64,000 nucleotides of DNA from Cupriavidus consociatus (GTDB taxonomy: Bacteria > Pseudomonadota > Gammaproteobacteria > Burkholderiales > Burkholderiaceae). Shown in pieces: positions 13,638 to 31,004 of the stretch; within the stretch, counting starts at the first letter, position 1; every line of letters begins with the position of its first letter. Made by a program: the position numbers and the translations under genes. Location: assembly GCF_017814975.1 (NCBI RefSeq), contig NZ_JAGIQA010000014.1:124001-188000 (forward strand), written 5' to 3'. The notes under the pieces are model-generated. The model did not search any database, was not told the origin of the DNA, and saw only the letters and a program-made list of their open reading frames with translations.

Positions 13638-13996
13638 GGGGCCGACCTGGTTTCGACGTGGGTTACAAAGCAGTGGAGGGCATACCGAGGACCCGTCACC
13701 TCGTTAATCAATGGGAATGCAATAACTGCTAACGACGAACGTTACGCACTGGCAGCCTAAGGGCCGCCGTCCTCGCACTGGCTCGCTGACGGGCTAGGGT
13801 CGCAAGACCACGCGAGGTCATTTACGTCAGATAAGCTCCGGAAGTGTCACGGGTCCAGAGACGAAAATTTAGTGACTCGCCGTCGTAGAGCGTGTTCGTC
13901 CGCGATGCGCCGGTTAAATCAAATGACAGAACTAAGTATGTAGAACTCTCTGTGGAGGGCTTGCGGACGCGGGTTCGATTCCCGCCGGCTCCACCA
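13638..13996 (+). ncRNA. ssrA: tmRNA (transfer-messenger RNA)
   Basis: The RNA rescues stalled ribosomes together with SmpB. The 5' GGGGCCG (13638-13644) pairs with CGGCTCC (13986-13992) to form the acceptor stem. A discriminator A and an encoded CCA follow. GGTTTCGACGTGG near the 5' end and GGGTTCGATTCCCG near the 3' end are the conserved D-loop-like and T-arm regions. The tag reading frame at 13728-13757 encodes ANDERYALAA and ends in TAA at 13758-13760. This is the single-chain form of about 359 nt, and the tag matches the Ralstonia/Cupriavidus type. Confidence 0.98.
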
Positions 13997-15962: not shown

Positions 15963-16469
15963 TCAGAGGAACCGGTCCAGCAGCTTGCGGCTGTGCTTGT
16001 CGAGCGCCATCAGATCCCGGATGAGGTAGTGGATCCCATGGCTGTCCGACACCATCAGAGTGTTGCCGGACAGCCGCCGGATCGCTTCTTCGCCGCGCAG
16101 CACGAGCGAGGTCCGTCCCCGATCGGTCTGCACGGTCCACACGCTTGGCGTGGCGAATGTCGAGACCTCGACGATGCGCTCGATCTCCGGCATGAACTCG
16201 CGCGATGCGAGTTCCTCTTCGATCATCCTGCGCTCGTTGGCAGGAAGGGCCTCAAGCCGCGGAATCCACACCACCTCATGCCCGTCGGCGCTCATCATGC
16301 CGATGCCACCTTGCGGCGCGGAGATCGGGAAGGCGCGCACCGGCACCACCCCTTCATAGATTGTGCCGTCGTCATGGATCAGCGTCAGACGGCCAAACGG
16401 ATTGCGCGACAGCTTGAAGTTCGCGCTGGCTGCGGCATTGGTGTCAGCCAAGGTCATCTCAGTGGGCAT
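15963..16469 (-). CDS. DUF1854 protein associated with cyanophycin genes
   Basis: The 168-residue soluble protein belongs to the DUF1854 family. Family-like segments are FPISAPQGGIGMMSADGHEVVWI, MIEEELASREFMPEIERI, WTVQTDRGRTSLVLRGEE and VSDSHGIHYLIRDL. The last part includes a possible DxxGxxY-like motif. Its start overlaps the end of the ABC transporter gene by 11 bp, so the two are translationally coupled. Annotation pipelines call these proteins cyanophycin-metabolism-associated only because of gene neighbourhood; the molecular role is unknown. An alternative ATG lies 12 bp downstream (16457). Confidence 0.85.
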   Translation of the reverse strand: MPTEMTLADTNAAASANFKLSRNPFGRLTLIHDDGTIYEGVVPVRAFPISAPQGGIGMMSADGHEVVWIPRLEALPANERRMIEEELASREFMPEIERIVEVSTFATPSVWTVQTDRGRTSLVLRGEEAIRRLSGNTLMVSDSHGIHYLIRDLMALDKHSRKLLDRFL

Positions 16470-18756
16470 TGGCCACCTCCGGCAGTGCGGTCACGGCTTC
16501 GCGCTCGTCGTCGTCCTCGGTATCAACGTTGCGCGCCTGCGCCTGATACAGCTTGAAATAAGCGCCCTCTCGCAACAGCAGTTCGTCGTGGCTGCCGACT
16601 TCGACGATCTTGCCGCGGTCCATCACCACCAGGCGGTCGGCCTTGCGCAGCGTTGACAGTCGGTGCGCGATGGCGATCGTGGTGCGACCTTGCACCAGGT
16701 TGTCGAGCGCCTTCTGGATTTCCTTCTCGGTCTGCGTGTCCACCGACGACGTCGCCTCGTCCATGATCAGGATGCGCGGGTTGATCAGCAGCGCGCGCGC
16801 GATCGAGATGCGCTGGCGCTCGCCGCCCGACAGCGCCTGGCCGCGCTCCCCGACCAGCGAGTCGTAGCCGTGCGGCAGGCGCAGGATGAACTCGTGCGCA
16901 TGCGCGGCGCGCGCGGCGGCGATGATCTCCTCGCGCGTGGCATCCGGCTTGCCGTAGGCGATGTTGTCGGCGATGGTGCCGAAGAACAGGAACGGCTCCT
17001 GCAGCACCAGGCCGATATGGCGGCGGTACTCGGAGACCGGCAGCGAGCGAATGTCAACGCCGTCGACACGAATCGCCCCTTCGGAAACATCGTAGAAGCG
17101 GCAGATCAGGTTGACCAGGGTGCTCTTGCCCGAGCCGCTGTGCCCGACCAGCCCGATCATCTCGCCCGGCGCGATCGACAGGTCGAGTCCGCGGATCACC
17201 GCCCGGTTGCCGTAGCGGAAGCCCAGGTCGCGCATGTCGATGGCACCTTCGACCTTGTCGAGCTTGGTCGGACGCACGGGCTCCGGCACGCTCGAGACAT
17301 GGTCAAGGATGTCGAAGATCCGCTTGGCACCCGCCGCGGCCTTCTGCGTCACCGAAACGATACGGCTCATCGAATCGAGGCGCGTATAGAAACGGCTGAT
17401 ATAGGTCAGGAAGGCAACCAGCACGCCCACCGTGATGGCGCTGTGCGACACCTGCCAGATGCCGAACATCCATACGATCAGCAGCCCGATCTCGGTCAGC
17501 AGCGTCACAGTCGGCGTAAACAGCGACCATACCGCGTTGACGCGATCGTTGATGGCCAGGTTGTGCTTGTTTGCCTCGCGGAAGCGCGTCACTTCGCGCT
17601 TTTCCTGCGCGAACGCCTTGACCACGCGGATGCCGGGGATGGTGTCGGCCAGTACGTTGGTGATTTCCGACCAGATGCGGTCGATCTTTTCGAAACCATG
17701 CCGGAGGCGATCGCGCACCAGGTGGATCATCCAGGCGATGAACGGCAGTGGCACCAGCGTCACCAGCGCCAGCCATGGATTGATCGAGACCAGGATCACC
17801 GCCGTCATGACGATCATCAGCACATCAGTCGCAAAGTCCAGCAAGTGCAGGGACAGGAACACGCAGATTCGGTCGCTTTCCGAGCCGATGCGCGCCATCA
17901 GGTCACCGGTACGCTTGCCGCCGAAATATTCCAGCGACAGCTTAAGCAGATGTTCGTAGGTCGTTGTGCGCAGATCCGCACCGATGCGCTCTGATACACG
18001 CGCCAGGAGGTAGGTGCGCGCCCAACCCAGGCTCCATGCCACCAACGCTGCGCCAAGCAGGCCACTCAGGTACATGCGCACGCGGCCGTAATCGATCGGT
18101 ACCCCGTTCTGGTACGGAATCAGCACCTTGTCCATCAGCGGCATGGTCAGGTATGGAGGCACCAGCGTGGCGCCGGTTGACAGCACCGTCAGCAGGAAAC
18201 CGGCCAACAGCTGCCAGCGGTAAGGCCGGGCAAAGCGCCACAGGCGCAGCAATGCCCAGGTCGACGGCGGCGTTTCCAACTCGCGGTTGCACTGGGGACA
18301 CTCCTCCTCTTCCGGCGGCAGCGGCGCCTTGCAGGTCGGGCACGCCACTTCGCCTGACTTGCCCGTTTCGGCAGCCGACGTGGCATCGCGGCGCATTTCG
18401 AACTGGTCGGCGAGCCGCAGCGCAGCTGGATTGTAACCAAGCGTATATCGCCAGCTGGCCAGCCGACCCGTTCGACCAGCCAGTTCAAGGGTGCCGACCC
18501 CCGCATGATCGGTATGGGAAAGGCGCAGTTCGGGCGAGATGTTCCATTCCCGCACATTTTTTTCGCCTGGCGGCCGGGCGACGATGCGCTGATCGGTCAC
18601 AACCAGCCACCCTTGGGTAAAATGCAGCCTCGCGTCGAGGTCCAGCACCAGTCCGGCCAGGACGTTCTCGCCGGGACGGAGCCACGTTCCGGATTCGGCA
18701 CGCCACGGCTCGTCGGAGGCGGGGATGTTAAGGGCAGGCAGGGAGGACTGGGTCAT
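16459..18756 (-). CDS. ABC exporter (fused permease-ATPase) of the cyanophycin locus
   Basis: The 765-residue half-transporter has an unusual first 165 residues: a beta-rich region (about 25-110, with LRPGENVLAGLVLDLDARLHF and VVTDQRIVA) and a zinc-ribbon-like knot with Cys139, Cys142, Cys153 and Cys156. A six-helix ABC exporter transmembrane domain follows (about 170-470). The ATPase has Walker A GHSGSGKST (538-546), signature LSGGE (642-646) and Walker B ILIMDE (662-667). It should work as a homodimer. It is divergent from the cyanophycin synthetase pair across 253 bp and coupled to the DUF1854 gene. The substrate is unknown. Confidence 0.9.
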   Translation of the reverse strand: MTQSSLPALNIPASDEPWRAESGTWLRPGENVLAGLVLDLDARLHFTQGWLVVTDQRIVARPPGEKNVREWNISPELRLSHTDHAGVGTLELAGRTGRLASWRYTLGYNPAALRLADQFEMRRDATSAAETGKSGEVACPTCKAPLPPEEEECPQCNRELETPPSTWALLRLWRFARPYRWQLLAGFLLTVLSTGATLVPPYLTMPLMDKVLIPYQNGVPIDYGRVRMYLSGLLGAALVAWSLGWARTYLLARVSERIGADLRTTTYEHLLKLSLEYFGGKRTGDLMARIGSESDRICVFLSLHLLDFATDVLMIVMTAVILVSINPWLALVTLVPLPFIAWMIHLVRDRLRHGFEKIDRIWSEITNVLADTIPGIRVVKAFAQEKREVTRFREANKHNLAINDRVNAVWSLFTPTVTLLTEIGLLIVWMFGIWQVSHSAITVGVLVAFLTYISRFYTRLDSMSRIVSVTQKAAAGAKRIFDILDHVSSVPEPVRPTKLDKVEGAIDMRDLGFRYGNRAVIRGLDLSIAPGEMIGLVGHSGSGKSTLVNLICRFYDVSEGAIRVDGVDIRSLPVSEYRRHIGLVLQEPFLFFGTIADNIAYGKPDATREEIIAAARAAHAHEFILRLPHGYDSLVGERGQALSGGERQRISIARALLINPRILIMDEATSSVDTQTEKEIQKALDNLVQGRTTIAIAHRLSTLRKADRLVVMDRGKIVEVGSHDELLLREGAYFKLYQAQARNVDTEDDDEREAVTALPEVANAH

Positions 18757-19009: not shown

Positions 19010-21646
19010 ATGAAAAAGAAGGACATTGAGATTTTCGATGTCATGTCGCTGCGCGGCCCGAATATGTGGACATATCGGCCCGTCCTGGAGGCATGGGTCG
19101 ATATCGGGGAACTGGAGGACTTTCCCTCCAACACGATTCCGGGATTCTACGAGCGCCTGTCGGCATGGCTGCCCTCGCTGATCGAGCATCGCTGCAGCAT
19201 CGGCGAGCGCGGCGGCTTCCTGCAGCGCTTGAAGGAAGGCACCTGGCCTGGCCATATCCTGGAACACGTGACGCTTGAGCTGCAGAACCTGGCGGGGATG
19301 CCCGGCGGCTTCGGCAAGGCGCGCGAGACCCCGGTGCGCGGCGTCTACAAGGTGATCGTCCGTGCCTGGCACGAGGAAGTCACCCGCGCCGCCCTGTTCA
19401 GCGCGCGCGATCTGGTCATGGCCGCGATCGAGGACCGTCCTTTCGACGTCACCGCCGCCGTGGACCACCTGCGCCGCCTGGTGGACGAGCACTGCCTCGG
19501 CCCCAGCACCGCGTGCATCGTCGATGCCGCCGATGATCGGGACATCCCTGCTATCCGCCTGTCGGACGGCAACCTGGTCCAGCTTGGCTACGGCGCGCGC
19601 CAGCGCCGCATCTGGACGGCCGAGACCGACCGGACCAGCGCCATCGGCGAAAGCATCTCGCGCGACAAGGACCTGACCAAGAGCCTGCTCGAGTCGTGCG
19701 GCGTGCCGGTGCCGGAAGGCCGCATGGTCGACTCGCCGCAAGACGCCTGGGACGCCGCCGAAGACATCGGCGTGCCGGTGGTGGTGAAGCCCTATGACGG
19801 CAACCACGGCCGTGGCGTCTTTACCAACCTGGTCACCCGCGAGGAGGTCGAGACCGCCTACGCCGTGGCATTGGACGAAGGCAGCGGCGTCATCGTCGAG
19901 CGCTTCATCCCCGGTAACGAACACCGCCTGCTGGTGGTGGGCGGCCGCGTGGTTGCCGCGGCGATGGGCGAGACTGCCTGCGTGGTCGGCGACGGCAAGT
20001 CCACCATCGACGAGCTGATCGAACTGCAGATCAATTCCGATCCGCGGCGGGGCAGCACCGAAGACCATCCGCTGAACCGCGTGCGCCTGGATTCCGCCGC
20101 GCGCCTGGAGCTGAAGCGCCAGGGCATGGACGGCAGCTCGGTGCCGGCTGAGGGCCGCACCGTGCTGATCCAGCGCAACGGCAACGTCGCGTTCGACGTG
20201 ACCGACCGCGTCCACCCGAGCGTGGCCGCACATGCGTCGCTGGCCGCGCGCGTGGTTGGGCTGGACATCGCCGGCGTGGATCTCGTGGCTGAGGACATCT
20301 CGCGCCCGCTGGCTGAACAGCGCGGCGCCATCGTCGAGGTCAACGCCGGTCCGGGCCTGCTGATGCACATCAAGCCGGCCGAAGGCACGCCGCGTCCGGT
20401 GGGCCGCGCCATCGTCAACCACCTGTTCCCCGAGGCCGAGCAGGACGACTGCGGCCGCATCCCGGTGGTCGGCGTGACCGGCACCAACGGCAAGACCGTG
20501 GTGGCGCGCCTGGTCGCGCGCCTGCTGCAGCTGTCTGGCAAGCATACTGGCCTGGCCTGCAGCGACGGGCTGTTCCTGGACCGACGCCTGGTGCAGAGCG
20601 GCGACCGCGCCAACTGGGACGCCGGCCACCGCATCCTGATGAACCGCGCGGTCGAGGCCGCCGTGTTCGAGAACGACAGCGGCAGCATCCTGTCCGAAGG
20701 CCTGGTCTATGACCGCTGCCAGGTCGGCGTGGTCACCAACTTCGACCAGCCCGACCACCTCGGCGACTACTACGTCGAGGACGAGGACCGCATGTACAAC
20801 GTGCTGCGCACGCAGGTCGACGTGGTGCTCAAGGACGGCGCCGCCGTGCTTAACGCGCGCGACGAGCGCCTGGTCGAGATGGCCGAGCTGTGCGACGGCG
20901 ACGTGATCTTCTTCGGCCTGACGCCGGAGCTGCCCGCGATCATGTCGCATCGCGCCGCAGGCAAGCGCGCGGTGTATGTGCGCGAAGGCAAGATCGTGCT
21001 GGCCGTCGGCAGCAAGGAAACGCCGCTGGTCGACGTGGCCGCGGTGCCGCTGACCTACGCCGGCCGCGTGGCGTTCCAGGTCGAGAACGTGCTGGCGGCC
21101 GTGGCCGCGGGCTGGGCGCTGGGCATCTCCAACGACCTGATCCGCGCCGGCGTGGTGACATTCGACGTCGGCCAGGTCGACGTGCCGGGCCGCTTCACGC
21201 TGTTCGAGCGCAATGGCGCCACCGTGGTCGTCGACGACGCTCACAACGCGCCCGCGCTGGAAGCGCTTGCGGCCGCGCTGGACCGCTTCCCGTCCGAACG
21301 CCGCATGGTGGTCTACGGCGCCGGCGTGCAGCGCCGCGATGAAGACCTGGTGCGCCAGGGCAAGGTGCTGGGCCAGCATTTCGACCGCGTCTTCCTGTGC
21401 GAAGACCGCAGCGTCAAGCGCGACCTGCCCGACGCCGAGGCGCGCGCGCTGCTCAAGCAAGGGCTGTATGAAGGCCGCCGCGTGACCAAGATCATCGACG
21501 AAGGCGCACGTGCCAATGCCATCGAGACCGCGCTCGGCCAGCTGGTGCCGGGCGACCTGCTGGTGCTGCAGTGCGACGAGGCCGCCACCGCGGCCACTGT
21601 CGACCTGGTACACCACTGGATGGGCCAGCCTGCGCGCCGCGCCTGA
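19010..21646 (+). CDS. cphA': Cyanophycin synthetase, first copy (CphA-prime type)
   Basis: The 878-residue protein has the three-domain cyanophycin synthetase layout. The N domain (about 1-165) keeps GHILEH with His82, Glu85 and His86, and LRGPNMW at the start. The ATP-grasp domain (about 220-480) has VVVKPYDGNHGRGV and EVNAGPG and would add aspartate to the backbone. The Mur-ligase-like domain has the P-loop GTNGKT (491-496), followed by VV rather than TT. The usual ETARGG-type segment reads ENDSGSILSEG (554-564). The loss of arginines and glycine there suggests weak or lost arginine ligation. The gene is 43 bp upstream of the second copy, in the same operon. Confidence 0.93.
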   Translation: MKKKDIEIFDVMSLRGPNMWTYRPVLEAWVDIGELEDFPSNTIPGFYERLSAWLPSLIEHRCSIGERGGFLQRLKEGTWPGHILEHVTLELQNLAGMPGGFGKARETPVRGVYKVIVRAWHEEVTRAALFSARDLVMAAIEDRPFDVTAAVDHLRRLVDEHCLGPSTACIVDAADDRDIPAIRLSDGNLVQLGYGARQRRIWTAETDRTSAIGESISRDKDLTKSLLESCGVPVPEGRMVDSPQDAWDAAEDIGVPVVVKPYDGNHGRGVFTNLVTREEVETAYAVALDEGSGVIVERFIPGNEHRLLVVGGRVVAAAMGETACVVGDGKSTIDELIELQINSDPRRGSTEDHPLNRVRLDSAARLELKRQGMDGSSVPAEGRTVLIQRNGNVAFDVTDRVHPSVAAHASLAARVVGLDIAGVDLVAEDISRPLAEQRGAIVEVNAGPGLLMHIKPAEGTPRPVGRAIVNHLFPEAEQDDCGRIPVVGVTGTNGKTVVARLVARLLQLSGKHTGLACSDGLFLDRRLVQSGDRANWDAGHRILMNRAVEAAVFENDSGSILSEGLVYDRCQVGVVTNFDQPDHLGDYYVEDEDRMYNVLRTQVDVVLKDGAAVLNARDERLVEMAELCDGDVIFFGLTPELPAIMSHRAAGKRAVYVREGKIVLAVGSKETPLVDVAAVPLTYAGRVAFQVENVLAAVAAGWALGISNDLIRAGVVTFDVGQVDVPGRFTLFERNGATVVVDDAHNAPALEALAAALDRFPSERRMVVYGAGVQRRDEDLVRQGKVLGQHFDRVFLCEDRSVKRDLPDAEARALLKQGLYEGRRVTKIIDEGARANAIETALGQLVPGDLLVLQCDEAATAATVDLVHHWMGQPARRA

Positions 21647-21689
21647 CGCGGCGCCTGAACACAGCGCATAGAAGACACGGAACCGTTCC

Positions 21690-24260
21690 ATGGAAGTCTC
21701 CCGTATCCGGGCCCTGCGGGGTCCGAACCTGTGGTGCCGCCACACCGCTATTGAAGCCATCGTCGTCTGCAAGGACACCACCGGCATGCTGTCGGACCTG
21801 CCCGGCTTTGAAGACCGGCTGCGCGCGCGCTTTCCCGAAATCGGGCCGCTGCGCCCGGACGAGGAATCGGGCGAACTCTCGCTCGCGCACGTGCTGGAAG
21901 TCGCCGCACTGCGCCTGCAGGCGGCCGCCGGCTGCCCGGTCACGTTCAGCCGCACCGCGCAGACGGTGGAGCCCGGCACCTACCAGGTGATCGTGCAGTA
22001 CAGCGAGGAAGAAGTCGGCAGGCTCGCGTTCGAGCTGGCCGAGGCACTGTGCCTGGCCGCGCGCAACGATACCGCCTTCGACCTGGCCGACGCGTTGCAT
22101 CGCCTGCGCGACCTGGATGAAGACGTGCGCCTGGGGCCCAGCACCGGCTCGATCGTCTATGCCGGCGTGGCGCGCGGCATCCCCTACCGGCGCCTGACGC
22201 AGGGTTCGATGGTGCAGTTCGGCTGGGGCAGCAAGCAGCGCCGCATCCAGGCCGCCGAGACCGACCGCACCAGCGCCGTGGCCGAATCGATCGCGCAGGA
22301 CAAGGAACTGACCAAGAGCCTGCTGCACGCCGCCGGCGTGCCGGTGCCGCTGGGCCGCTCGGTACGCAGCGCCGAGCAAGCCTGGGCCGCCGCGCAGGAA
22401 ATCGACGCGCCGGTGGTGGTCAAGCCGCGCGACGGCAACCAGGGCAAGGGCGTGGCGGTGCGCATCCGCACCCGCGAGGAAGTGATGACGGCCTACGAGG
22501 TCGCCTCGGACATCAGCTCCGACGTGATCGTCGAGCGCTACATCCCCGGCCACGACTTCCGCCTGCTGGTAGTCGGCAAGCAGCTGGTGGCGGCCGCGCG
22601 CCGCGACCCGCCGCAGGTGACCGGCGACGGCGTGCACACCGTGCGCGCGCTGGTCGAGGAAGTCAACCGCGATCCGCGCCGCGGCGAAGGCCATGCCACC
22701 TCGCTGACCAAGATCCGCTTCGACGATATCGCGCTGGCGGTGCTGGCCAAGCAGAACCTGACCGCCGATTCCGTGCCGGCCAAGGGCACGCGCGTGGTGC
22801 TGCGCAACAACGCCAATCTGTCCACCGGCGGCAGCGCCACCGACGTGACCGACGACGTCCACCCGGACATCGCGGCGCGCGCCGTGGCCGCGGCGCAGAT
22901 GGTGGGCCTGGATATTGCCGGCGTCGACGCGGTGTGCGAGACCATGCTCAAGCCGTTCGAGGAACAGGCCGGCGGCATCGTCGAGGTCAACGCCGCGCCG
23001 GGCCTGCGCATGCACCTGCAGCCATCGTACGGCAAGGGCCGCGCGGTGGGCGAGGCGATCATCTCGACCATGTTCTCCGATGGCGACGATGGCCGCATCC
23101 CAGTGGTGGCCGTCTCCGGCACCAACGGCAAGACCACGACTGTGCGCCTGATCACCCATATCATGGCCACCAGCGGCCTGCGCATGGGCATGACCGGCAC
23201 TGACGGCGTCTATATCCAGGGCGAGCGCATCGATACCGGCGACTGCAGCGGCCCGCGCAGCGCGCGCAACGTGCTGCTGCATCCCGATGTGGACGCGGCC
23301 GTTTTTGAAACCGCGCGTGGCGGCCTGCTGCGCGAAGGGCTGGCCTTCGACCGTTGCGACGTGGCCGTGGTGACCAACGTCGGCGAAGGCGACCACCTGG
23401 GCCTGTCGTACATCAATTCGGTGGAAGACCTGGCGGTGCTCAAGAGCGTGATCGTGCAGAACGTCGCGCCGCACGGCATGGCCGTGCTCAATGCAGCCGA
23501 CCCGATGGTGGTGTCCATGGCCGACGCCTGCCCCGGCAGCGTGACCTTCTTCGCGCACGATCCGAACCAGCCTGCAATGGCCACGCATCGTGCGCAAGGC
23601 AAGCGCGTGGTCTTTGTCGACGGCGCCGAGATCGTGGCGTCGGAGGGCGACACCCAGGTGCGCATCGCGCTGGCGGAGATTCCGCTGACGCGCAACGGCA
23701 CCATCGGCTTCCAGGTCGAGAACGCGATGTCATCGATCGCCGCCGCGTGGGCGCTGGGCATCGACTGGGCCATCATCCGCCGCGGCCTGGCTACCTTCGT
23801 CAATGACGCCGCGACGGCTCCCGGCCGCTTCAACGTGTTCGACTACAAGGGCGCCATGCTGATCGCCGATTACGGCCACAACCCGGACGCGATCCAGGCA
23901 TTGTGCAACGCGGTCGAGACCATGCCGGCCGGCCGCCGGGTGGTCGTGATCAGCGGCGCCGGCGACCGCCGCGATGAGGACATCCGTCGCCAGACGCAGA
24001 TCCTGGGCGGCGTATTCGACGAAGTGGTGCTGTACCAGGACCAGTGCCAGCGCGGGCGTGCCGACGGCGAGGTGCTGGCGCTGCTGCGCGAAGGCCTGCA
24101 AGGCGCGCAGCGCACCAGCCAGGTCGAGGAAATCCGTGGCGAATTCCTGGCCATCGACACCGCGTTGTCGCACCTGAAGCCGGGCGACCTGTGCCTGATC
24201 CTGGTGGACCAGGTGGAAGAGGCGCTGGGGCATATCGCGGGGCGGATCGCGCAGGGGTAA
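21690..24260 (+). CDS. cphA: Cyanophycin synthetase, second copy
   Basis: The 856-residue protein makes multi-L-arginyl-poly-L-aspartate, a nitrogen, carbon and energy reserve. The ATP-grasp domain (VVVKPRDGNQGKGV, EVNAAPGLRMH) and the Mur-ligase-like domain (GTNGKTTT at 477-484, ETARGGLLREG at 540-550) look canonical. The N domain is divergent: the position matching HxxEH in the first copy reads H67-V-L-E-V71, so the second histidine is gone. The canonical GGFL...GTWPGH stretch is also missing. It is cotranscribed with the first copy, and no cyanophycinase gene is in the window. Confidence 0.95.
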   Translation: MEVSRIRALRGPNLWCRHTAIEAIVVCKDTTGMLSDLPGFEDRLRARFPEIGPLRPDEESGELSLAHVLEVAALRLQAAAGCPVTFSRTAQTVEPGTYQVIVQYSEEEVGRLAFELAEALCLAARNDTAFDLADALHRLRDLDEDVRLGPSTGSIVYAGVARGIPYRRLTQGSMVQFGWGSKQRRIQAAETDRTSAVAESIAQDKELTKSLLHAAGVPVPLGRSVRSAEQAWAAAQEIDAPVVVKPRDGNQGKGVAVRIRTREEVMTAYEVASDISSDVIVERYIPGHDFRLLVVGKQLVAAARRDPPQVTGDGVHTVRALVEEVNRDPRRGEGHATSLTKIRFDDIALAVLAKQNLTADSVPAKGTRVVLRNNANLSTGGSATDVTDDVHPDIAARAVAAAQMVGLDIAGVDAVCETMLKPFEEQAGGIVEVNAAPGLRMHLQPSYGKGRAVGEAIISTMFSDGDDGRIPVVAVSGTNGKTTTVRLITHIMATSGLRMGMTGTDGVYIQGERIDTGDCSGPRSARNVLLHPDVDAAVFETARGGLLREGLAFDRCDVAVVTNVGEGDHLGLSYINSVEDLAVLKSVIVQNVAPHGMAVLNAADPMVVSMADACPGSVTFFAHDPNQPAMATHRAQGKRVVFVDGAEIVASEGDTQVRIALAEIPLTRNGTIGFQVENAMSSIAAAWALGIDWAIIRRGLATFVNDAATAPGRFNVFDYKGAMLIADYGHNPDAIQALCNAVETMPAGRRVVVISGAGDRRDEDIRRQTQILGGVFDEVVLYQDQCQRGRADGEVLALLREGLQGAQRTSQVEEIRGEFLAIDTALSHLKPGDLCLILVDQVEEALGHIAGRIAQG

Positions 24261-24385: not shown

Positions 24386-25045
24386 TCAATGCCTCCCCGG
24401 CAACGACAGCTTCCGCTCCAGCATATGCTGCAGCCCTGACAACCCCGTGCTCAACACCCAGTAGATCGCCGCCACCGCCAGGTACAGCGGCAACGGCTGG
24501 TACGTCGCCGCGATGACCTCCTGCGCTGTGCGCAGCAGTTCCGTCACCGTGATCACCGACACCAGCGACGTATCCTTGATCAGGCTGATCAGGCTGTTCG
24601 ACAAGCTCGGCACCGCCAGCCGCAGCGCCTGCGGGCCCACCACGTAGCGCAGCGCCTGCGCCGGCGTCAGCCCCAGGCTGTATGCGGCCAGCCATTGGCC
24701 GCGCGCCACGCCCAGGATGGCGCCGCGCATGCTTTCCGACAGGTACGCCCCTACATTCAAGCTCAGCGTCAGCACGCCGGCCGGTGTGGGCTCCAGCGCG
24801 ATGCCGACACCCGGGAGTCCGTAGTACACGACAAAGATCTGCACCAGCAGCGGCGTGCCGCGCATGATGCTGACATAGGTGCGCGCCACCGCCTTGAGCG
24901 GGCGGCTGTGGCTGATGCCCATCAGCGCCACCACGGTACCGATCACCAGCCCGAACAGCATCGACCACAATGCGAACTTGATGGTCAGCAGCGTGCCCTG
25001 CAGCAGCACGGGCAGGGAATCGATGACGAGCTGGAGAGCGGACAT
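24386..25045 (-). CDS. tcyL: Polar amino-acid ABC transporter permease (cystine/TcyL type)
   Basis: The 219-residue inner-membrane protein is closely similar in layout to the E. coli cystine permease TcyL (YecS). Shared features are QLVIDSLPVLLQGTLLTIKF at the N-terminus, the SIMRGTPLLVQIFVVYYGLP stretch, and the EAA-like loop GQWLAAYSLGLTPAQALRYVVGPQALR with SLSNSLISLIKDTSL. It has about five membrane segments. It follows the binding-protein gene by 111 bp on the same strand. No ATPase (TcyN) gene is present beside it, so an ATPase must be supplied from elsewhere. Substrate is inferred from similarity. Confidence 0.88.
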   Translation of the reverse strand: MSALQLVIDSLPVLLQGTLLTIKFALWSMLFGLVIGTVVALMGISHSRPLKAVARTYVSIMRGTPLLVQIFVVYYGLPGVGIALEPTPAGVLTLSLNVGAYLSESMRGAILGVARGQWLAAYSLGLTPAQALRYVVGPQALRLAVPSLSNSLISLIKDTSLVSVITVTELLRTAQEVIAATYQPLPLYLAVAAIYWVLSTGLSGLQHMLERKLSLPGRH

Positions 25046-25156
25046 GGGCGTGGCGGCGGACTAGAGGTAAGAAAACAAAGCGGCGCGGCAGCCATGCTGG
25101 CCGCCGCGCCGCGACATGATACCGCCCGGCTCGCTGGCCGGCTTACTTGATCCGGC

Positions 25157-25978
25157 TTACTTGACCGGCTTGCCGGCGGGCTTGGTCACGTCGGTGCCGA
25201 ACCACTTCACCGAGAGCTTGCCCAGCGTGCCGTCCTTGCTCAGGTCTTCCAGCGCATGGTTGATGGCCTGCGCGAACTTGGGGTTGTCCTTGCGGAACGG
25301 GATGGCCACCTGCGTAGTGGCGCCCGCCACGATCGCGCCCGGGCGCAGTGGCAGGTTGGCGGTCTTGACCAGGTAGGCCACCATCAGCCGGTCATTGAGC
25401 GCGGCGTCAACGCGCTGTGCCGCCAGGTCGCGCAGGTACTCGGGCGCGCCGGGATAGGTCTTGACGTCGATGCCGGCCACTGACTTGGCCAGCTCGTTGT
25501 AATTGCTGCCCAGGCTGACGCCGAGCTTGTGGCCCTTCAGGTCTTCCAGCGACTTGAACTGGCGCTTGTCGTCCTTGCGCTGGATCAGCTGCGCATCCGA
25601 GTAGACGTAGGGCGTGGAAAAGTCCAGCACCTGCTGGCGCTGCGGCGTGACATTGACCTGGTTGACGATCACGTCGAACTTGCCCGCCTGCAGGCCGGCG
25701 ATGATGCCGCTCCACTCGGTGGTGACGAACTCGGGCTTGACCCCGAGCTTGCCCGCCACCGCGCGCGCGACGTCGACGTCAAACCCTTCCAGTTCATTCT
25801 TGGCGCCGCGGAAGCCGAACGGCGGGTACGTGCCCTCCAGCCCGATCTTGAGCACGCCGGCTTGCTTGACGGTATCGAGCAGGTCGGCGGCATGGGCCGC
25901 GGTGGCCGCAAGGCCGGCCCCCGCCATCAGCGAGGCCGCCAGCAGCGACTTGAACCAGCCAGTACGAATCGATCGCAT
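25157..25978 (-). CDS. tcyJ: Periplasmic amino-acid binding protein (cystine/TcyJ type)
   Basis: The 273-residue precursor has a signal peptide (MRSIRTGWFKSLLAASLMAGAGLAATAAHA). A family 3 solute-binding domain follows: LKIGLEGTYPPFGF, LEGFDVDVARAVA, FDVIVNQVNVTPQR, DFSTPYVYSDA, LGVSLGSNY. The end reads LSVKWFGTDVTK, which resembles the TcyJ/FliY C-terminus of E. coli. A ribosome-binding site (CTGGAGAACAT) precedes the ATG. It is followed by the TcyL-like permease. Cystine is the likely substrate, but a related polar amino acid cannot be excluded. Confidence 0.88.
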   Translation of the reverse strand: MRSIRTGWFKSLLAASLMAGAGLAATAAHAADLLDTVKQAGVLKIGLEGTYPPFGFRGAKNELEGFDVDVARAVAGKLGVKPEFVTTEWSGIIAGLQAGKFDVIVNQVNVTPQRQQVLDFSTPYVYSDAQLIQRKDDKRQFKSLEDLKGHKLGVSLGSNYNELAKSVAGIDVKTYPGAPEYLRDLAAQRVDAALNDRLMVAYLVKTANLPLRPGAIVAGATTQVAIPFRKDNPKFAQAINHALEDLSKDGTLGKLSVKWFGTDVTKPAGKPVK

Positions 25979-26183
25979 ATGTTCTCCAGTAGATGCGGAT
26001 AAGCAGTAGGTGGGCAGGCAACGCCGGCCAGCCTCTCGTGGAGGGCTGCCGGCCGGTTGTGCTGCTATGAGCCTATATCGGGCGCTACACTACCGCAAAC
26101 GCTATCGATGGCGAAATAACGATTCATCATGGCTATATAACCGCCGGGCGAAGCAGACGCCGCGGCGGCACCTCCCTGCCTGT

Positions 26184-27092
26184 TTACTGGTAGGCCTTGT
26201 CGTTGGGCGCCGCGAACAGTGCCTTCATGTCGGTCGACAGCGGGTAGTTCATGTTGATGTTGCGCGGCGGGATCGGCGACATGAACCACTTGTTGTAGAG
26301 CTTCTCCGCGCGGCCGCTGGTCTGCAGGTCGGCGATCACGCCGTCGGCCAGCTTCTTGAACGAAGGATCGTCCTTGCGGAACATGCAGGCATAGTTCTCG
26401 GTCTGCAGCGGCGCGCCGACCACCACCCAGTCGCCCGCGCTCTTGGCCTTGGTGCGCTCGCCGTACAGCAGCGGCTCGTCCATGACGAAGGCAGCGGCGC
26501 GCCCGCTTTCCAGGATCAGGAAGGACTGGCCATGGTCCTTGGTGCTGATCAGATTCATGTTCATCGCCTTCTCGCCGTTCATCTTGACCAGCAGGCGCTC
26601 GCCGGTGGTGCCGGCAGTGGTGACAACGTTGCGGTCCTTCAGGTCGGTGAACTCCTTCACGCCCGAGTCCTTCTTCGTCAGCATCTTGATGCCATAGACG
26701 AACAGGCTGTTGGAGAACGCCACCTGTTTCTGGCGCTCCAGGTTATTGGTGGTGCTGCCGCACTCGATGTCGATGGTGCCGTTCTGCACCAGCGGGATGC
26801 GGTTCTGCGAAGTGATCGGCGTCAGCCGCACCTGCAGGTTCGGCATCTTCAGCTCGCTCTTCACCTTGTCGACGATCTGCAGCAGGATCTCGTGCGAGTA
26901 CCCCATCACCTCCTTGCCGTCGGTGTACGAGAACGGGATCGACGATTCGCGGTAGCCCAGCGAGATCACGCCGCTGTCCTTGATCTTCTTCAGCGTGTCG
27001 CCGTCGGCAGCCTGGGCCGCGCCGGCGGCCAGCAGCAACGCGGCGGCGGCAAGCATGCAGGGGGTGGCAAAGCGGGTGTGCAGTGGTTTCAT
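26184..27092 (-). CDS. Glutamate/aspartate-type periplasmic binding protein
   Basis: The 302-residue precursor has a signal peptide ending near GAAQA. The mature protein shows the GltI pattern: SLGYRESSIPFSYTDGKEVMGYS, LTPITSQNRIPLVQNGTIDIECGSTTNN, ERQKQVAFSNSLFV, AKDHGQSFLILESGRAAAFVMDEPLL. It ends with NPIPP-like SPIPPRNINMNYPLS and EMKALF-like DMKALFAAPNDKA. A strong ribosome-binding site (AAGGAGCGAC) marks the ATG at 27092; an in-frame start at 27122 is less likely. No cognate permease or ATPase is adjacent. Its neighbour is an amino-acid dehydrogenase gene. Confidence 0.88.
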   Translation of the reverse strand: MKPLHTRFATPCMLAAAALLLAAGAAQAADGDTLKKIKDSGVISLGYRESSIPFSYTDGKEVMGYSHEILLQIVDKVKSELKMPNLQVRLTPITSQNRIPLVQNGTIDIECGSTTNNLERQKQVAFSNSLFVYGIKMLTKKDSGVKEFTDLKDRNVVTTAGTTGERLLVKMNGEKAMNMNLISTKDHGQSFLILESGRAAAFVMDEPLLYGERTKAKSAGDWVVVGAPLQTENYACMFRKDDPSFKKLADGVIADLQTSGRAEKLYNKWFMSPIPPRNINMNYPLSTDMKALFAAPNDKAYQ

Positions 27093-27191
27093 GTCGCGCT
27101 CCTTGTAATGGGGCTTGGTCATTGAGGCTCGTTTTCTCGAGGTATTGCGAACTCACGGGTACTGCAGGAACCATTGCCGCATGCCGCTGCG

Positions 27192-28475
27192 CTACGCGCG
27201 CGCGGCATCGAAGTCCTTGACGTCCAGCGCCGGGCGACGCCCCGCCAGCCGGTCGGCCAGCAGGCCGGCGCTGCCCATCGCCAGCGTGAAGCCCAGCGCG
27301 CCGTGGCCGAGGTTCAGCCACAGGCCAGACACGCGCGATGGCCCGATCAGCGGCAGCCCGTCCGGCGTGGCCGGACGCAGGCCTGCCCACGGCTGCAGCT
27401 GCGCCAGCGGCAGGTCCGGCACGATGCCGTCAAACAGGGCGCGCGTTTGCGCCACCAGCGTGCCGACCCGCTCCGGGTCGATGCGGGTGCCGCCGCGCAC
27501 CAGGTCGGCCATGCCTGCCACCCGCAGTGTATTGCCGATCCGCGCGTAAACGATCTTGTTAGCGAAATCCGTCACGCTGATATGCGGCGCGCGCGCGCCG
27601 CTGGCCAGCGGCACGGTGATGCTATAGCCCTTGAGCGGCCACAGCATCGGCCGCACGCCCAGCGGGCGCAGCAGCGGCACGCTGCCGATGCCGCCCGCGA
27701 CCACGACCACATCGGCCGGCACCTCGCCGGCATCGGTGCGCACGCCGGTCACGCGCCCGCCCTGCTGCATCAGCCCCTGCACCACGGTGCCAAAGCGCAG
27801 CGACACGCCTGTGCCGCCGCCGTGTTGCAGCAACCGTGCCAGCGACACGCAGAAGCGGTGGCAGTCGCCCACCTCCTCGCTCGGCGTGTAGATGGCGCCG
27901 GCGATCTCGTCGCGGATGCCGGCCAGCGCAGGCTCCAGCGCAACGCAGGCATCGCGGTCCAGTGCCTGCTGCTCGCAGCCCAGGCTGGCCTGGTAATCCA
28001 GCAGCCGGCACGCCGAGGCAAACGCCGCTTCGTCGCGGTGCACCACCAGCTTGCCGCGCCTCGCGAAATCGAAGCCGAAGCCGGTGTCCCCGCGCTCGTG
28101 CTGCGCCACGAACGCCTGCAACTGGTCGCGCGAATAGAAGCCCAGGCGCAGCAGCTTGCGTGTGGTGGCCTCGCTGGTGCCGGCATTGCAGGCGCTCATG
28201 AAGGCGGCCAGCCAGCGCCATTGCGCGGGATCGGCCACCGGGCGGAAGCGCATCGGCGAATCGCGCCGCAGCAGCCAGCCGGGCACCTTGCCCATCACGC
28301 CCGGCCCGGCCAGCGGCGCCACATAGCTGTAGCTGAGCTGCCCGCCATTGGCAAAGCTGGTTTCCTCGCCGGGACCCCGGTGTCGTTCCAGCACCGTCAC
28401 CTCATGCCCGTCCTGCGCCAGGCGCCACGCCGTTGTCATGCCCACCACTCCGGCGCCCACGATCACTACCCGCAT
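27192..28475 (-). CDS. dadA: FAD-dependent D-amino acid dehydrogenase (DadA family)
   Basis: The 427-residue product has an N-terminal FAD-binding Rossmann motif (VVIVGAGVVGMTTAWRLAQDG) followed by VTVLERHRGPGEETSFANGGQLSYSYVAPLAGPGV. This is typical of DadA, which deaminates D-amino acids to keto acids and passes electrons to the respiratory chain. The C-terminal GLRPATPDGLPLIGPS and NLGHGALGFTLAMGS are family signatures. It is divergent from a LysR-type regulator (138 bp), probably its controller. It lies 99 bp upstream of the glutamate/aspartate-type binding protein. The exact amino-acid substrate is not visible. Confidence 0.9.
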   Translation of the reverse strand: MRVVIVGAGVVGMTTAWRLAQDGHEVTVLERHRGPGEETSFANGGQLSYSYVAPLAGPGVMGKVPGWLLRRDSPMRFRPVADPAQWRWLAAFMSACNAGTSEATTRKLLRLGFYSRDQLQAFVAQHERGDTGFGFDFARRGKLVVHRDEAAFASACRLLDYQASLGCEQQALDRDACVALEPALAGIRDEIAGAIYTPSEEVGDCHRFCVSLARLLQHGGGTGVSLRFGTVVQGLMQQGGRVTGVRTDAGEVPADVVVVAGGIGSVPLLRPLGVRPMLWPLKGYSITVPLASGARAPHISVTDFANKIVYARIGNTLRVAGMADLVRGGTRIDPERVGTLVAQTRALFDGIVPDLPLAQLQPWAGLRPATPDGLPLIGPSRVSGLWLNLGHGALGFTLAMGSAGLLADRLAGRRPALDVKDFDAARA

Positions 28476-28613
28476 TGACTTCCTTGTTGCATCAAAAGAT
28501 CGATGCCAGAGGTTAGAACAGCAGGGCCGGCTTGCCCAATGCGAATACGTGCCAGAATATGTCTTCAGGCTATGGATGGCCTGTGCCTATCGCGTTCCAG
28601 CCCCCCAAATCCC

Positions 28614-29600
28614 ATGCGCCTGCGCCAGATCGAGGTTTTCCGCGCCGTGATGCTGACCGGCACTGTCAGCGAAGCCGCGCGCCTGCTGCACGTGTCCCAG
28701 CCCGTGGTCACGCGCGTGCTGCAGCATGCCGAGGCCTCGCTCGGCTTCCGCCTGTTCGAGCGCGTGCGCGGTCGCCTGCAGCCGACGCCGGAGGCCAACG
28801 CCTTGTACGGCGATGTCGAAAGGCTATATGGCGAGATCGAGCGGGTGCGCCGGGTCTCGGAAAGCCTGCGCCACAAGGGCGCCGGGCGCCTGCGCGTGGC
28901 GGCCACGCCAAGCCTGGCCAACCCGCTGCTGGTGCCGGCGGTGCGGCGCTTCTGCGCGCGCCACCCCGACACACAGGTGCAGGTGCTGACCCACCATACC
29001 GACGAGATCGTCGGTGCGCTGCTGGCCAACCAGATCGACCTGGGTTTTGCCTTCTTGCCGCCGCGCCACGAGGCCATTTCGAGCGAGCCGGTGGCCAGCG
29101 GCCGCATGTTGCTGGCGGTGCCGCGCGGCCAGCCGCTGCCCGCCGCGGGGCGCCGCCGCCAAGTGCCGATGCAGCGGCTGATGGACCGCCCCTTCATCGG
29201 CTATGACGACAACAGCTCGCTCGGCCTGCTGGTGCGCCAGACGCTGGCGCGGCACGCGCTCGAGCCGCGCTCGACGCTGGAGGTGCAGACCTATTCGCTG
29301 GCGCTGGCGCTGGTCGATGCCGGGCTAGGCCTGACGCTGCTGGACCAGTACACCGCGCTCAGCGCCAATCCCGGCCATGTGGCGCTGCATGACGTGGCGC
29401 CGGAACTGCCGTTCGAAATCCAGATGCTGCGCGCCAGCCACCGCGCCGGCTCCAGCCTGGCCGACGACCTGCGCGTGCAGTTCGCGCAGGCGGCGCAGGA
29501 GCTGGCGGCAACGCTGCCACAGCGGCTGGAAGCGCCGGTGATCAGCCTCGAAGGTTCGCTGCCGGGAGGCGCCAAGGTGCGTACGGCGATACTGGAATGA
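28614..29600 (+). CDS. LysR-type transcriptional regulator
   Basis: The 328-residue protein starts with a LysR winged-helix domain (MRLRQIEVFRAVMLTGTVSEAARLLHVSQPVVTRVLQHAEASLGFRLFER). The effector domain covers about residues 90-300 (LRVAATPSLANPLLVPAVRRF, LLANQIDLGFAFLPP). The ATG at 28614 is chosen because the conserved helix-turn-helix begins there; upstream in-frame codons have no similarity. It is divergent from dadA, and LysR regulators usually control the divergent neighbour, so an amino-acid signal is likely. The last about 25 residues are variable. Confidence 0.9.
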   Translation: MRLRQIEVFRAVMLTGTVSEAARLLHVSQPVVTRVLQHAEASLGFRLFERVRGRLQPTPEANALYGDVERLYGEIERVRRVSESLRHKGAGRLRVAATPSLANPLLVPAVRRFCARHPDTQVQVLTHHTDEIVGALLANQIDLGFAFLPPRHEAISSEPVASGRMLLAVPRGQPLPAAGRRRQVPMQRLMDRPFIGYDDNSSLGLLVRQTLARHALEPRSTLEVQTYSLALALVDAGLGLTLLDQYTALSANPGHVALHDVAPELPFEIQMLRASHRAGSSLADDLRVQFAQAAQELAATLPQRLEAPVISLEGSLPGGAKVRTAILE

Positions 29601-29690
29601 TGGCCGCGCCGGCGCCAATTTGACAGCTTCACAGGCGGTGCACCATCATCAAGCCGCCTGCACTCGCTGGCCGCATGCGCCAGACCGCCT

Positions 29691-31004
29691 ATGTTTGTCC
29701 TGACCCTGACCGCTCTTGTCCTGGTCAGCGCCTTCTTCTCCATCTCCGAGATCGCGCTGACCGCCGCACGCCGCACCAAGCTCCAGGTCTTGTCCGAGCG
29801 CGGCGATGGCCGCGCCACGCGCGTACTGCTGCTCAAGGAAGAGCCAGGGAATTTCTTCACCATCGTGCAGATCGGCGTCAACAGCGTGGCCATCCTCGCC
29901 GGTATCCTCGGCGAGAAGCACGTGTCCGACCTGCTGCTGGAAACGCTGTCGCCCTATATGCAGGTGGCTCACGCGCAGCGCGTGGCCAATATCGGCTCGT
30001 TCCTGATCGTGACGCTGCTGTTTATCCAGTTTGCCGACCTGATTCCCAAGCGCATCGCGATGACCTTCCCGGAAGCATGCGCGCTCGCAGTGATCGACCC
30101 GATGCTGACGCTGCTGCGCGTGCTCAAGCCGCTGGTGTGGGTCTTCAACGCCGCCGCCGACGCCACGCTGCGGCTGTTGCGCATGCCGACCAAGCCGGTC
30201 GACCAGATCACCACCGAGGACATCGCCGCCATGGTCGATGCCGGGGCCGAGGCCGGCGTGCTGCACAAGCATGAGCTGCACCTGATCGAGAATGTGTTCG
30301 AACTCGAGTTCAAGGGCATCACCGCGATCATGACGCCGCGCGACGACGTGGTCTGGCTGAGCCTGAACGAGCCCGCCGACAGCGTGCGGCGCAAGCTGGT
30401 CAACCAGCCGCATGCGCAATACCCGGTGTGCGGGCATGACCTGGACGACGTGCAGGGCTATATCGATTCCAAGGACATCCTGCAGCTGCTGCTGGCCGAC
30501 GAAAGCGCCACGGTGATCGGCAACATCGGCCGCCACCACGACAAGAACGTCCTGGTGATCCCCGACACGCTGACCCTGTCCGAGTCGCTCACGCGCTTCC
30601 GCGAGATGCACCAGAACTTTGCCGTGGTAATGAACGAGTACGGGCTGGTGGTGGGCATCGTCACGCTCGACGATATCGTCGGCGCGCTGATGGGCGACAT
30701 CCTCTACTCCAGCGAAGACGAGCAGATCGTGCGACGCGACGACAGCTCGTGGCTGGTCGACGGCCTGACGCCGCTGGTGGATCTGAAGAAGGCGCTGGAA
30801 CTCGATGCCCTGCCCGGTGAGGACTATGTCGACACCGCTGGCGGATTGGTGATCTACGCGCTCAAGCGCATCCCGAAGAAATCCGAGTCGATTACCGTGG
30901 CGGGCTATCGCTTTGAAGTGCTGGACATCGACCACCACAAGATCGACCAGCTGCTGGTATCGCGCCTGCCGTCGCCAGAAGATCCTGCGGTGGGACAGCC
31001 GTAG
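29691..31004 (+). CDS. CNNM/CBS-domain membrane protein (YtfL/CorC-HlyC family)
   Basis: The 437-residue protein has an N-terminal CNNM transmembrane domain with three to four helices (MFVLTLTALVLVSAFFSISEIALTAARRTKL, TIVQIGVNSVAILAGILGEK, IQFADLIPKRIAMTFPE). A pair of CBS domains follows (about 205-330, with IMTPRDDVVWL and LVVGIVTLDDIVGALMGDI), then a C-terminal CorC_HlyC domain (WLVDGLTPLVDLKKAL to about 430). E. coli YtfL (PaeA) of this group has been linked to polyamine export; other members to Mg/Co efflux. Hemolysin in old names is misleading. The 3' end overlaps the convergent PAP2 gene by 113 bp. Confidence 0.9.
   Translation: MFVLTLTALVLVSAFFSISEIALTAARRTKLQVLSERGDGRATRVLLLKEEPGNFFTIVQIGVNSVAILAGILGEKHVSDLLLETLSPYMQVAHAQRVANIGSFLIVTLLFIQFADLIPKRIAMTFPEACALAVIDPMLTLLRVLKPLVWVFNAAADATLRLLRMPTKPVDQITTEDIAAMVDAGAEAGVLHKHELHLIENVFELEFKGITAIMTPRDDVVWLSLNEPADSVRRKLVNQPHAQYPVCGHDLDDVQGYIDSKDILQLLLADESATVIGNIGRHHDKNVLVIPDTLTLSESLTRFREMHQNFAVVMNEYGLVVGIVTLDDIVGALMGDILYSSEDEQIVRRDDSSWLVDGLTPLVDLKKALELDALPGEDYVDTAGGLVIYALKRIPKKSESITVAGYRFEVLDIDHHKIDQLLVSRLPSPEDPAVGQP

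Follow-up and report, generated by a model that had tools for sequence, protein, structure and literature searches.

Complementary active-site losses in two adjacent cyanophycin synthetase homologues of Cupriavidus consociatus and related bacteria

Described cyanophycin enzymes and the paired locus

In the cyanophycin synthetases SuCphA1 and TeCphA1 (CphA1), an N domain, an ATP-grasp (G) domain and a Mur-ligase (M) domain bring three active sites together in one protein. The Cx19HxxEH site of the SuCphA1 N domain is the primer-making site, positions 603 and 607 touch the polymer in this site, and the N domain supplied in trans renders the primer-dependent TmCphA1 active without primer (PMC9262961; here and below, citations refer to excerpts of the papers named). 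In the G domain of TeCphA1, the incoming Asp is handled by R323, N394, S396 and R458, R323 contacting its beta-carboxylate and R458 its alpha-carboxylate; R309 and H267 serve the chain end and the acylphosphate, K220 and K261 ATP, and D431 and E450 the metal (PMC9427784). We analysed a stretch of 64,000 nucleotides from Cupriavidus consociatus (called here the window) that carries two adjacent CphA genes, copy 1 and copy 2. Both encoded proteins resemble CphA1 in domain order, fold and family, but the sites are distributed between them: the N-site is found in copy 1, the M-site in copy 2, and the full set of Asp-recognition residues in copy 2 only.

CphA1 is also the best match among solved structures, both by sequence and for a structural model of copy 1. 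The primer-dependent CphA1 of Tatumella morbirosei (7lgn) resembles copy 2, as it lacks all four N-site residues (PMC9262961) and possesses the G and M motifs; unlike copy 2, it keeps His267 in the alignment. Genomes with two cphA copies have been reported before, in Ralstonia eutropha (PMC11362209), in Sideroxydans, in Herminiimonas, and in Accumulibacter and other members of a "Group 1" (PMC10687191). The two copies are neighbours in Sideroxydans and in Group 1, where an ABC transporter accompanies them (PMC10687191). In Tetrasphaera two cphA copies in series are found beside cphB (PMC10687191). Adjacent cphA copies are therefore already in print. In the available portions of the published text both neighbouring copies are treated as synthetases and no split of active sites is mentioned, and searches among open-licence papers of PubMed Central gave no description of such a split.

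The two genes of the window are as follows:

19010 to 21646, + strand: copy 1, open reading frame of 878 amino acids; N-site intact, ATP-grasp acceptor site altered, Mur-ligase domain degenerate
21690 to 24260, + strand: copy 2, open reading frame of 856 amino acids; N-site broken, Asp-recognition residues complete, Mur-ligase domain intact

An earlier note, made from the DNA letters, had described two adjacent reading frames with distinctive motifs; both frames and the quoted motifs are real, as seen in the translations and in the matches to NCBIfam TIGR02068. The genes are separated by 43 bases on the same (+) strand, and both proteins pass the TIGR02068 cut-off of 850 bits over their full length (copy 1, 897.5 bits; copy 2, 981.4 bits). 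They are the only over-cut-off CphA genes of this 8.3 Mb genome. The closest named relatives of copy 1 come from C. lacunae (96%) and C. alkaliphilus (95%). Elsewhere, four copy-1 genes of the class set score 581 to 701 bits, below the cut-off, and some of the order set score above 850.

With the thresholds as set, TIGR02068 matched 147 of 399 genomes of the window's order and 18 of 369 of its class; two candidates were scored per genome in these scans, which may miss third copies. In the order, the pair type was taken to comprise the 136 of the 147 genomes that lie outside genus codes g316 and g334 (two hits in 132 of the 136), and sequences were read in 73 of them, the window's included. Eighty regions were fetched, hand-picked to spread over genera: 75 are pair loci, representing 61 genus codes, and five contain only other CphA types (L124, L126, L128, L130 and L132). 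In 74 of the 75 fetched pair loci copy 1 immediately precedes copy 2 in the same orientation, and the 75th ends at a contig edge. Of 80 named loci, which may overlap the other locus set, 78 include 1 kb or more of downstream sequence, and in 77 of these copy 1 is followed by a copy-2 gene. The two-gene arrangement is thus general and not peculiar to the window.

Residues were counted in 75 copy-1 and 76 copy-2 sequences, the window's included and all distinct, picked by profile match and position and not by the HxxEH motif. The 80 named loci were left out of these counts because the search patterns that gave them contained part of HxxEH. The comparison set held 31 rows of other CphA proteins, which amount to 26 distinct sequences since five were fetched twice. 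SuCphA1 was the reference, and conserved sites carry SuCphA1/TeCphA1 numbers.

Conservation of the N, M and G sites

The N-domain and Mur-ligase features of the two proteins are:

19193 to 19267, + strand: copy 1, Cx19HxxEH metallopeptidase-like motif (C62, H82, E85, H86), kept in relatives
21888 to 21902, + strand: copy 2, HVLEV (H67 to V71), remnant of HxxEH in a shortened N domain
20480 to 20497, + strand: copy 1, GTNGKT P-loop (residues 491 to 496), kept here and lost in most relatives (Lys499 in 26/75)
20669 to 20701, + strand: copy 1, ENDSGSILSEG (residues 554 to 564) replacing the ETARGG-type segment (Arg561 in 0/75)
20804 to 20821, + strand: copy 1, L599 (for Lys602), R600 and D604 (positions 603 and 607; R603 in 75/75, D607 in 75/75)
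21155 to 21628, + strand: copy 1, lid of the Mur-ligase domain, missing in most of the copy-1 relatives (gap at 745 in 62/75)
23307 to 23339, + strand: copy 2, ETARGGLLREG, canonical in sequence

The four residues of the N-site (C59, H79, E82 and H83) are complete in all 73 copy-1 sequences that cover it, two more being cut fragments. By contrast, the site is complete in none of the 76 copy-2 sequences, where Cys is kept in 0/76, H79 in 62/76, E82 in 50/76 and H83 in 2/76, and where the alignment is gapped at F67 in 76/76 and at R70 in 75/76. The Pfam N-domain score is 122 bits in copy 1 and 47 bits in copy 2. In the AlphaFold2 model of copy 1 (mean predicted local distance difference test score 88.2; predicted template modelling score 0.75), the HxxEH residues lie on a helix spanning residues 80 to 94. 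The intact HxxEH of copy 1 (His82, Glu85, His86) and the broken motif of copy 2 had both been pointed out in the earlier note, and a role of copy 1 as primer maker, also proposed there, would fit the fully conserved site.

The M domain shows the opposite pattern. K499, E558, R561, H586 and K602 are all kept in 76/76 copy-2 sequences and in all other CphA rows, but in 0/75 copy-1 sequences, which retain at most three of the five. Taken singly, R561 is kept in 0/75 copy-1 sequences, K602 in 1/75, G563 in 3/75, H586 in 16/75, K499 in 26/75 and E558 in 71/75. In the window's copy 1 the clear changes are R561 to S557, G563 to S559 and K602 to L599. The earlier note was right that the ENDSGSILSEG segment is altered and that the copy-2 domain is canonical, but the copy-1 P-loop, which it also considered altered, is not itself broken, as K495 and T496 are kept together with H583. 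Positions 603 and 607 are Arg and Asp in 75/75 copy-1 sequences though the M catalytic residues have drifted. The complementary loss that had been proposed for the two proteins is therefore strongly supported, the N-site being complete in 73/73 versus 0/76 sequences and the five M residues in 0/75 versus 76/76.

The G-domain features are:

19805 to 19807, + strand: copy 1, H266, equivalent to His267 of the ATP-grasp P-loop (H in 68/73)
19967 to 19969, + strand: copy 1, G320 replacing Arg323 (from the alignment)
20168 to 20185, + strand: copy 1, large loop five residues shorter around Ser396 (gap in 75/75; exact edges alignment-dependent)
20360 to 20362, + strand: copy 1, L451 replacing Arg458 (from the alignment)
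22440 to 22442, + strand: copy 2, Q251 replacing His267 (Q in 72/76, H in 4/76)
22815 to 22832, + strand: copy 2, NLSTGG aspartate loop (N376, S378; N394 and S396 in 76/76)

R309, R323, N394, S396 and R458 form a complete set in 76/76 copy-2 sequences and in 0/75 copy-1 sequences. In copy 1, R323 is found in 0/73 (Gly in 71) and R458 in 0/75 (Leu in 73), and the stretch S396 to I400 is absent in 75/75. Pairwise alignment of the window's copy 1 agrees on the changes at R323 and R458 and places Arg, not Ser, at 396. Since both Asp-binding arginines and the five-residue loop are lost, copy 1 is probably not an Asp-adding enzyme. Hence the ATP-grasp domains are not both intact, as had been stated earlier: copy 1 lacks R323, R458 and the loop, and copy 2 has Q251 in place of H267.

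These residues bear directly on the division of labour offered in the earlier note, in which copy 1 would make primers and add Asp, copy 2 would add Arg, and both would possibly work in a mixed complex. Such a split would account for the retention in copy 1 of His267, which is mostly Gln in copy 2, and of the ATP, metal and chain-end residues (K220 72/73, K261 73/73, R309 74/74, D431 74/75, E450 73/75). His267 is of functional weight, as H267A reduces the activity of TeCphA1 and SuCphA1 and serves as the G-minus mutation (PMC9427784). At two loci (L121 and L122), moreover, copy 2 has His267 where copy 1 has lost it. These two loci, however, share one family code, and at the other three loci without a copy-1 His267, copy 2 has Gln. 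The residues that copy 1 never keeps and copy 2 always keeps are those of the Asp site itself, at which replacing R323, N394 or R458 by Ala impairs TeCphA1 and the S396W change leaves SuCphA1 inactive (PMC9427784). The assignment of Asp addition to copy 1 and Arg addition to copy 2 is thus not supported by the residue counts, and we regard this split as unlikely. It should be noted that all five copy-1 sequences without His267, two of which carry further changes at the ATP or metal site, retain a complete N-site.

The G domain of copy 1 has nearly invariant residues of its own, W202, T203, N188, E307, G323 and L458, and their near invariance indicates remodelling of this domain and not plain decay. 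Together with the preserved ATP site, these new residues could suit a CphA2-like activity, in which the G domain would join beta-Asp-Arg dipeptides, or another acceptor devoid of the free carboxylates of Asp, in addition to cutting. M activity is lost in CphA2 (7ta5, 8fxh), and the degenerate M domain of copy 1 and the lack of a lid in most of its relatives recall what is reported for these enzymes (PMC9427784). On the other hand, the N-domain motif kept in copy 1 is absent from CphA2 (PMC9262961), and an alpha-amino-acid acceptor is difficult to reconcile with the lost R458, which contacts the alpha-carboxylate; a CphA2-like activity of copy 1 therefore seems quite improbable. Membership of copy 1 in CphA2 proper was rejected on account of the N-domain motif. 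The window's copy 1 also retains the P-loop and the lid, the absence of which is a feature of CphA2, and the CphA2 structures match copy 1 less well than CphA1 does, ranking sixth and lower by sequence and below CphA1 for the model.

Common origin, selection and the proposed division of labour

In a tree of 75 rows (quick search, midpoint root), copy 1 and copy 2, with 28 rows each, form one clade apiece and the two clades are sisters, all with support of 100 in the Shimodaira-Hasegawa-like approximate likelihood ratio test. Sister clades are what a duplication followed by complementary loss predicts. In genus g328, four loci (L124, L126, L128 and L130) hold a third CphA that stands alone near a cyanophycinase gene; it has Gln267, its N-site is broken, and it is sister to the copy-1/copy-2 clade.

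The domains of the two copies are under opposite constraints. Mean identities between loci, for copy 1 and copy 2 respectively, are 0.639 and 0.598 in the N domain, 0.658 and 0.714 in the G domain, and 0.472 and 0.692 in the M-domain core (Mcore). For each of these domains zero lies outside the locus-bootstrap 95% interval of the difference, although the intervals are too narrow since the loci are related. Copy 1 is the less conserved member in 2774 of 2775 locus pairs for Mcore but in only 834 of 2628 for the N domain. The ratio of nonsynonymous to synonymous substitution rates (dN/dS), obtained from 13 Cupriavidus/Ralstonia-type sequences (the window, ten named loci and two congeners), is 0.090 (N), 0.135 (G), 0.195 (Mcore) and 0.315 (lid) for copy 1, and 0.169, 0.079, 0.121 and 0.121, respectively, for copy 2.

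These values also speak to the idea that copy 1 has no catalytic activity and is a pseudo-enzyme in decay, retained solely as a structural partner. A drifting M domain, the missing lid of most relatives and an in-frame stop in the paired copy-1 gene of a Sheuella metagenome-assembled genome (MAG) would be in keeping with decay. An N-site that is intact in every covering sequence, in the domain that has the lowest dN/dS of copy 1, would not, and this appears the least probable of the explanations considered here.

The explanation that we favour, with a probability of roughly 0.65, is that of a divided enzyme, in which copy 2 would be a primer-dependent polymerase and copy 1 a polymer-cleaving primer maker. 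An ancestral three-site cyanophycin synthetase would have been duplicated and its jobs then divided. Copy 2 would polymerise, its G domain adding Asp and its M domain adding Arg, and since its N-domain peptidase is lost, it should need primers. Copy 1 would no longer build polymer, with its M domain degenerate and its G-domain pocket for incoming Asp lost; deletion of the lid, missing in most of its relatives, markedly lowers the activity of TeCphA1 (PMC9427784). It would keep the zinc-peptidase-like N-site, together with the M-domain contacts to polymer lying there, and may cut cyanophycin into short pieces that serve copy 2 as primers, while its G domain may bind polymer, ATP or the partner protein. 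The two proteins may associate physically. We count in favour of this reading the report that both copies are evenly expressed in Accumulibacter (PMC10687191) and, as a precedent, the activation of TmCphA1 by the separate SuCphA1 N domain described above.

Several observations weigh against it. The G domain of copy 1 keeps its ATP, metal and chain-end residues under purifying selection, and its own invariant residues are more than a passive remnant needs. N394 would count likewise if kept: the multiple alignment gives Asn in 68/75 copy-1 sequences and the pairwise alignment of the window protein gives a gap. In copy 2, Gln replaces His267 in 72/76 sequences, and its G domain could therefore be weak or dead; copy 2 also often retains part of the N-site, namely H79 and E82. 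Eleven copy-1 sequences, the window's included, keep K499, H586 and the lid. Finally, wild-type Ralstonia eutropha, with two homologues, reportedly makes no cyanophycin (PMC11362209, citing Adames 2013). The possibility that the copy-2 G domain is simply dead through Gln267 was not adopted, as the other Asp-site residues are kept in 76/76; judged from sequence, Gln at 267 likewise goes together with R323 and R458 in the stand-alone third CphA of four loci from a single genus.

Should copy 1 indeed cut polymer instead of acting as a second synthetase, the annotation of many genomes would be wrong, and neither gene expressed by itself should work unless primer is supplied. The pair would then also offer a clear example from nature of duplication dividing a polymerase that has several sites.

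Cyanophycinases, neighbouring genes and related loci

Cyanophycinase (CphB/E/I, peptidase S51) would share with copy 1 the reaction of cutting cyanophycin, but it is an exo-enzyme that yields dipeptides (PMC10206079), and Peptidase_S51 is absent among the Pfam matches of copy 1. In a survey, Betaproteobacteria are the largest group of the clade table with 903 CphA1-encoding genomes, about 3% of which have a recognised cyanophycinase, a scarcity that its authors had not anticipated and for which they suggest isozymes not yet recognised (PMC10206079). According to the available text, no cyanophycinase was found in Group 1 (PMC10687191), in the Sideroxydans contigs or in Herminiimonas, and analogues of cphB in the two-copy cluster are called for (PMC10687191).

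In our sets, a cyanophycinase (TIGR02069) scores over the cut-off in 21/21 genomes whose CphA was read as canonical (10 of the order and 11 of the class, eight family codes; one of them, G452, carries a second, unread CphA hit), and also in G594, a congener with an unread CphA sequence. Among the genomes taken as pair type it does so in 10/139, that is 10/136 of the order and 0/3 of the class (G091, G213 and G314). Four of these 10 (G422, G634, G663 and G745) have a third, stand-alone CphA less than 5 kb from the cyanophycinase. Four further genomes of the 136 have TIGR02069 matches below the cut-off, and six order genomes have one above it without any CphA hit. A profile search of the window's genome gave no TIGR02069 match. 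Its two S51 proteins were considered as hidden cyanophycinases and rejected, both matching the dipeptidase PepE; the genome also encodes one beta-aspartyl-peptidase-type protein (399 bits, model cut-off 567, over the Pfam cut-off).

This pattern fits a copy 1 that does part of the cutting, as a correlation over related genomes and no proof. The split may account for the many bacteria of this kind that get by with no recognised enzyme for cutting, and a cutting copy 1 would give the puzzle of the missing cyanophycinase one named candidate. A bolder proposal, which we advance tentatively and hold to be rather doubtful, is that copy 1 might be the missing betaproteobacterial cyanophycin depolymerase itself. 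In this view a former synthetase, now a metallo-endopeptidase encoded first in a two-gene unit, would supply primers to the polymerase and also release the stored polymer, and the pair would take the place of a single CphA combined with a cyanophycinase. The remodelled, strictly conserved ATP-grasp domain might then sense ATP or hold the chain end and in this way act as a switch between synthesis and cleavage.

Several CphA-like genes outside the fetched pairs were also seen. The Sheuella MAG mentioned above (genome G764), whose paired copy-1 gene carries an in-frame TGA stop, has a stand-alone copy-1 gene of 724 amino acids apart from copy 2 (L216, 5001 to 7175), possibly an error or a relocated copy. 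A MAG labelled Myxococcales carries a full-length copy-1 gene of 59% identity (L190, 5001 to 7601), by transfer or mis-binning. An outlying CphA-like protein (L025, 1162 to 3801; 662.8 bits) carries Lys267, lacks the N-site and sits on a very long branch, and its genome gave no cyanophycinase match. Among viral contigs no relative was found. Plasmids gave 64 matching records, all below 60% identity to copy 1; five of the 60 listed were examined. In a Ruegeria plasmid cluster (L235, 1 to 3216), a cyanophycinase gene is followed by cphA and then by a gene for a separate Mur ligase family protein.

Two genes associated with cyanophycin metabolism lie upstream of the pair in the window:

16459 to 18756, - strand: cyanophycin metabolism-associated ABC transporter (NF052233; 1454 bits, cut-off 880), divergent from copy 1
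15963 to 16469, - strand: cyanophycin metabolism-associated DUF1854 protein (NF052234; 234 bits, cut-off 150)

Of the named loci, 72 extend 3.5 kb or more beyond copy 1 on the upstream side; 67 of these have the ABC exporter (divergent in 57, co-directional in 10), and the DUF1854 protein is likewise present in 67. A loose sigma-54 pattern matched 84 times in the window, where 100 matches were expected, and no promoter was inferred from it. On the 3' side of the pair, positions 24386 to 31004 encode an amino-acid ABC permease and binding proteins, a D-amino acid dehydrogenase, a LysR regulator and a PaeA-type polyamine exporter. A transfer-messenger RNA gene is located at 13638 to 13996 on the + strand.

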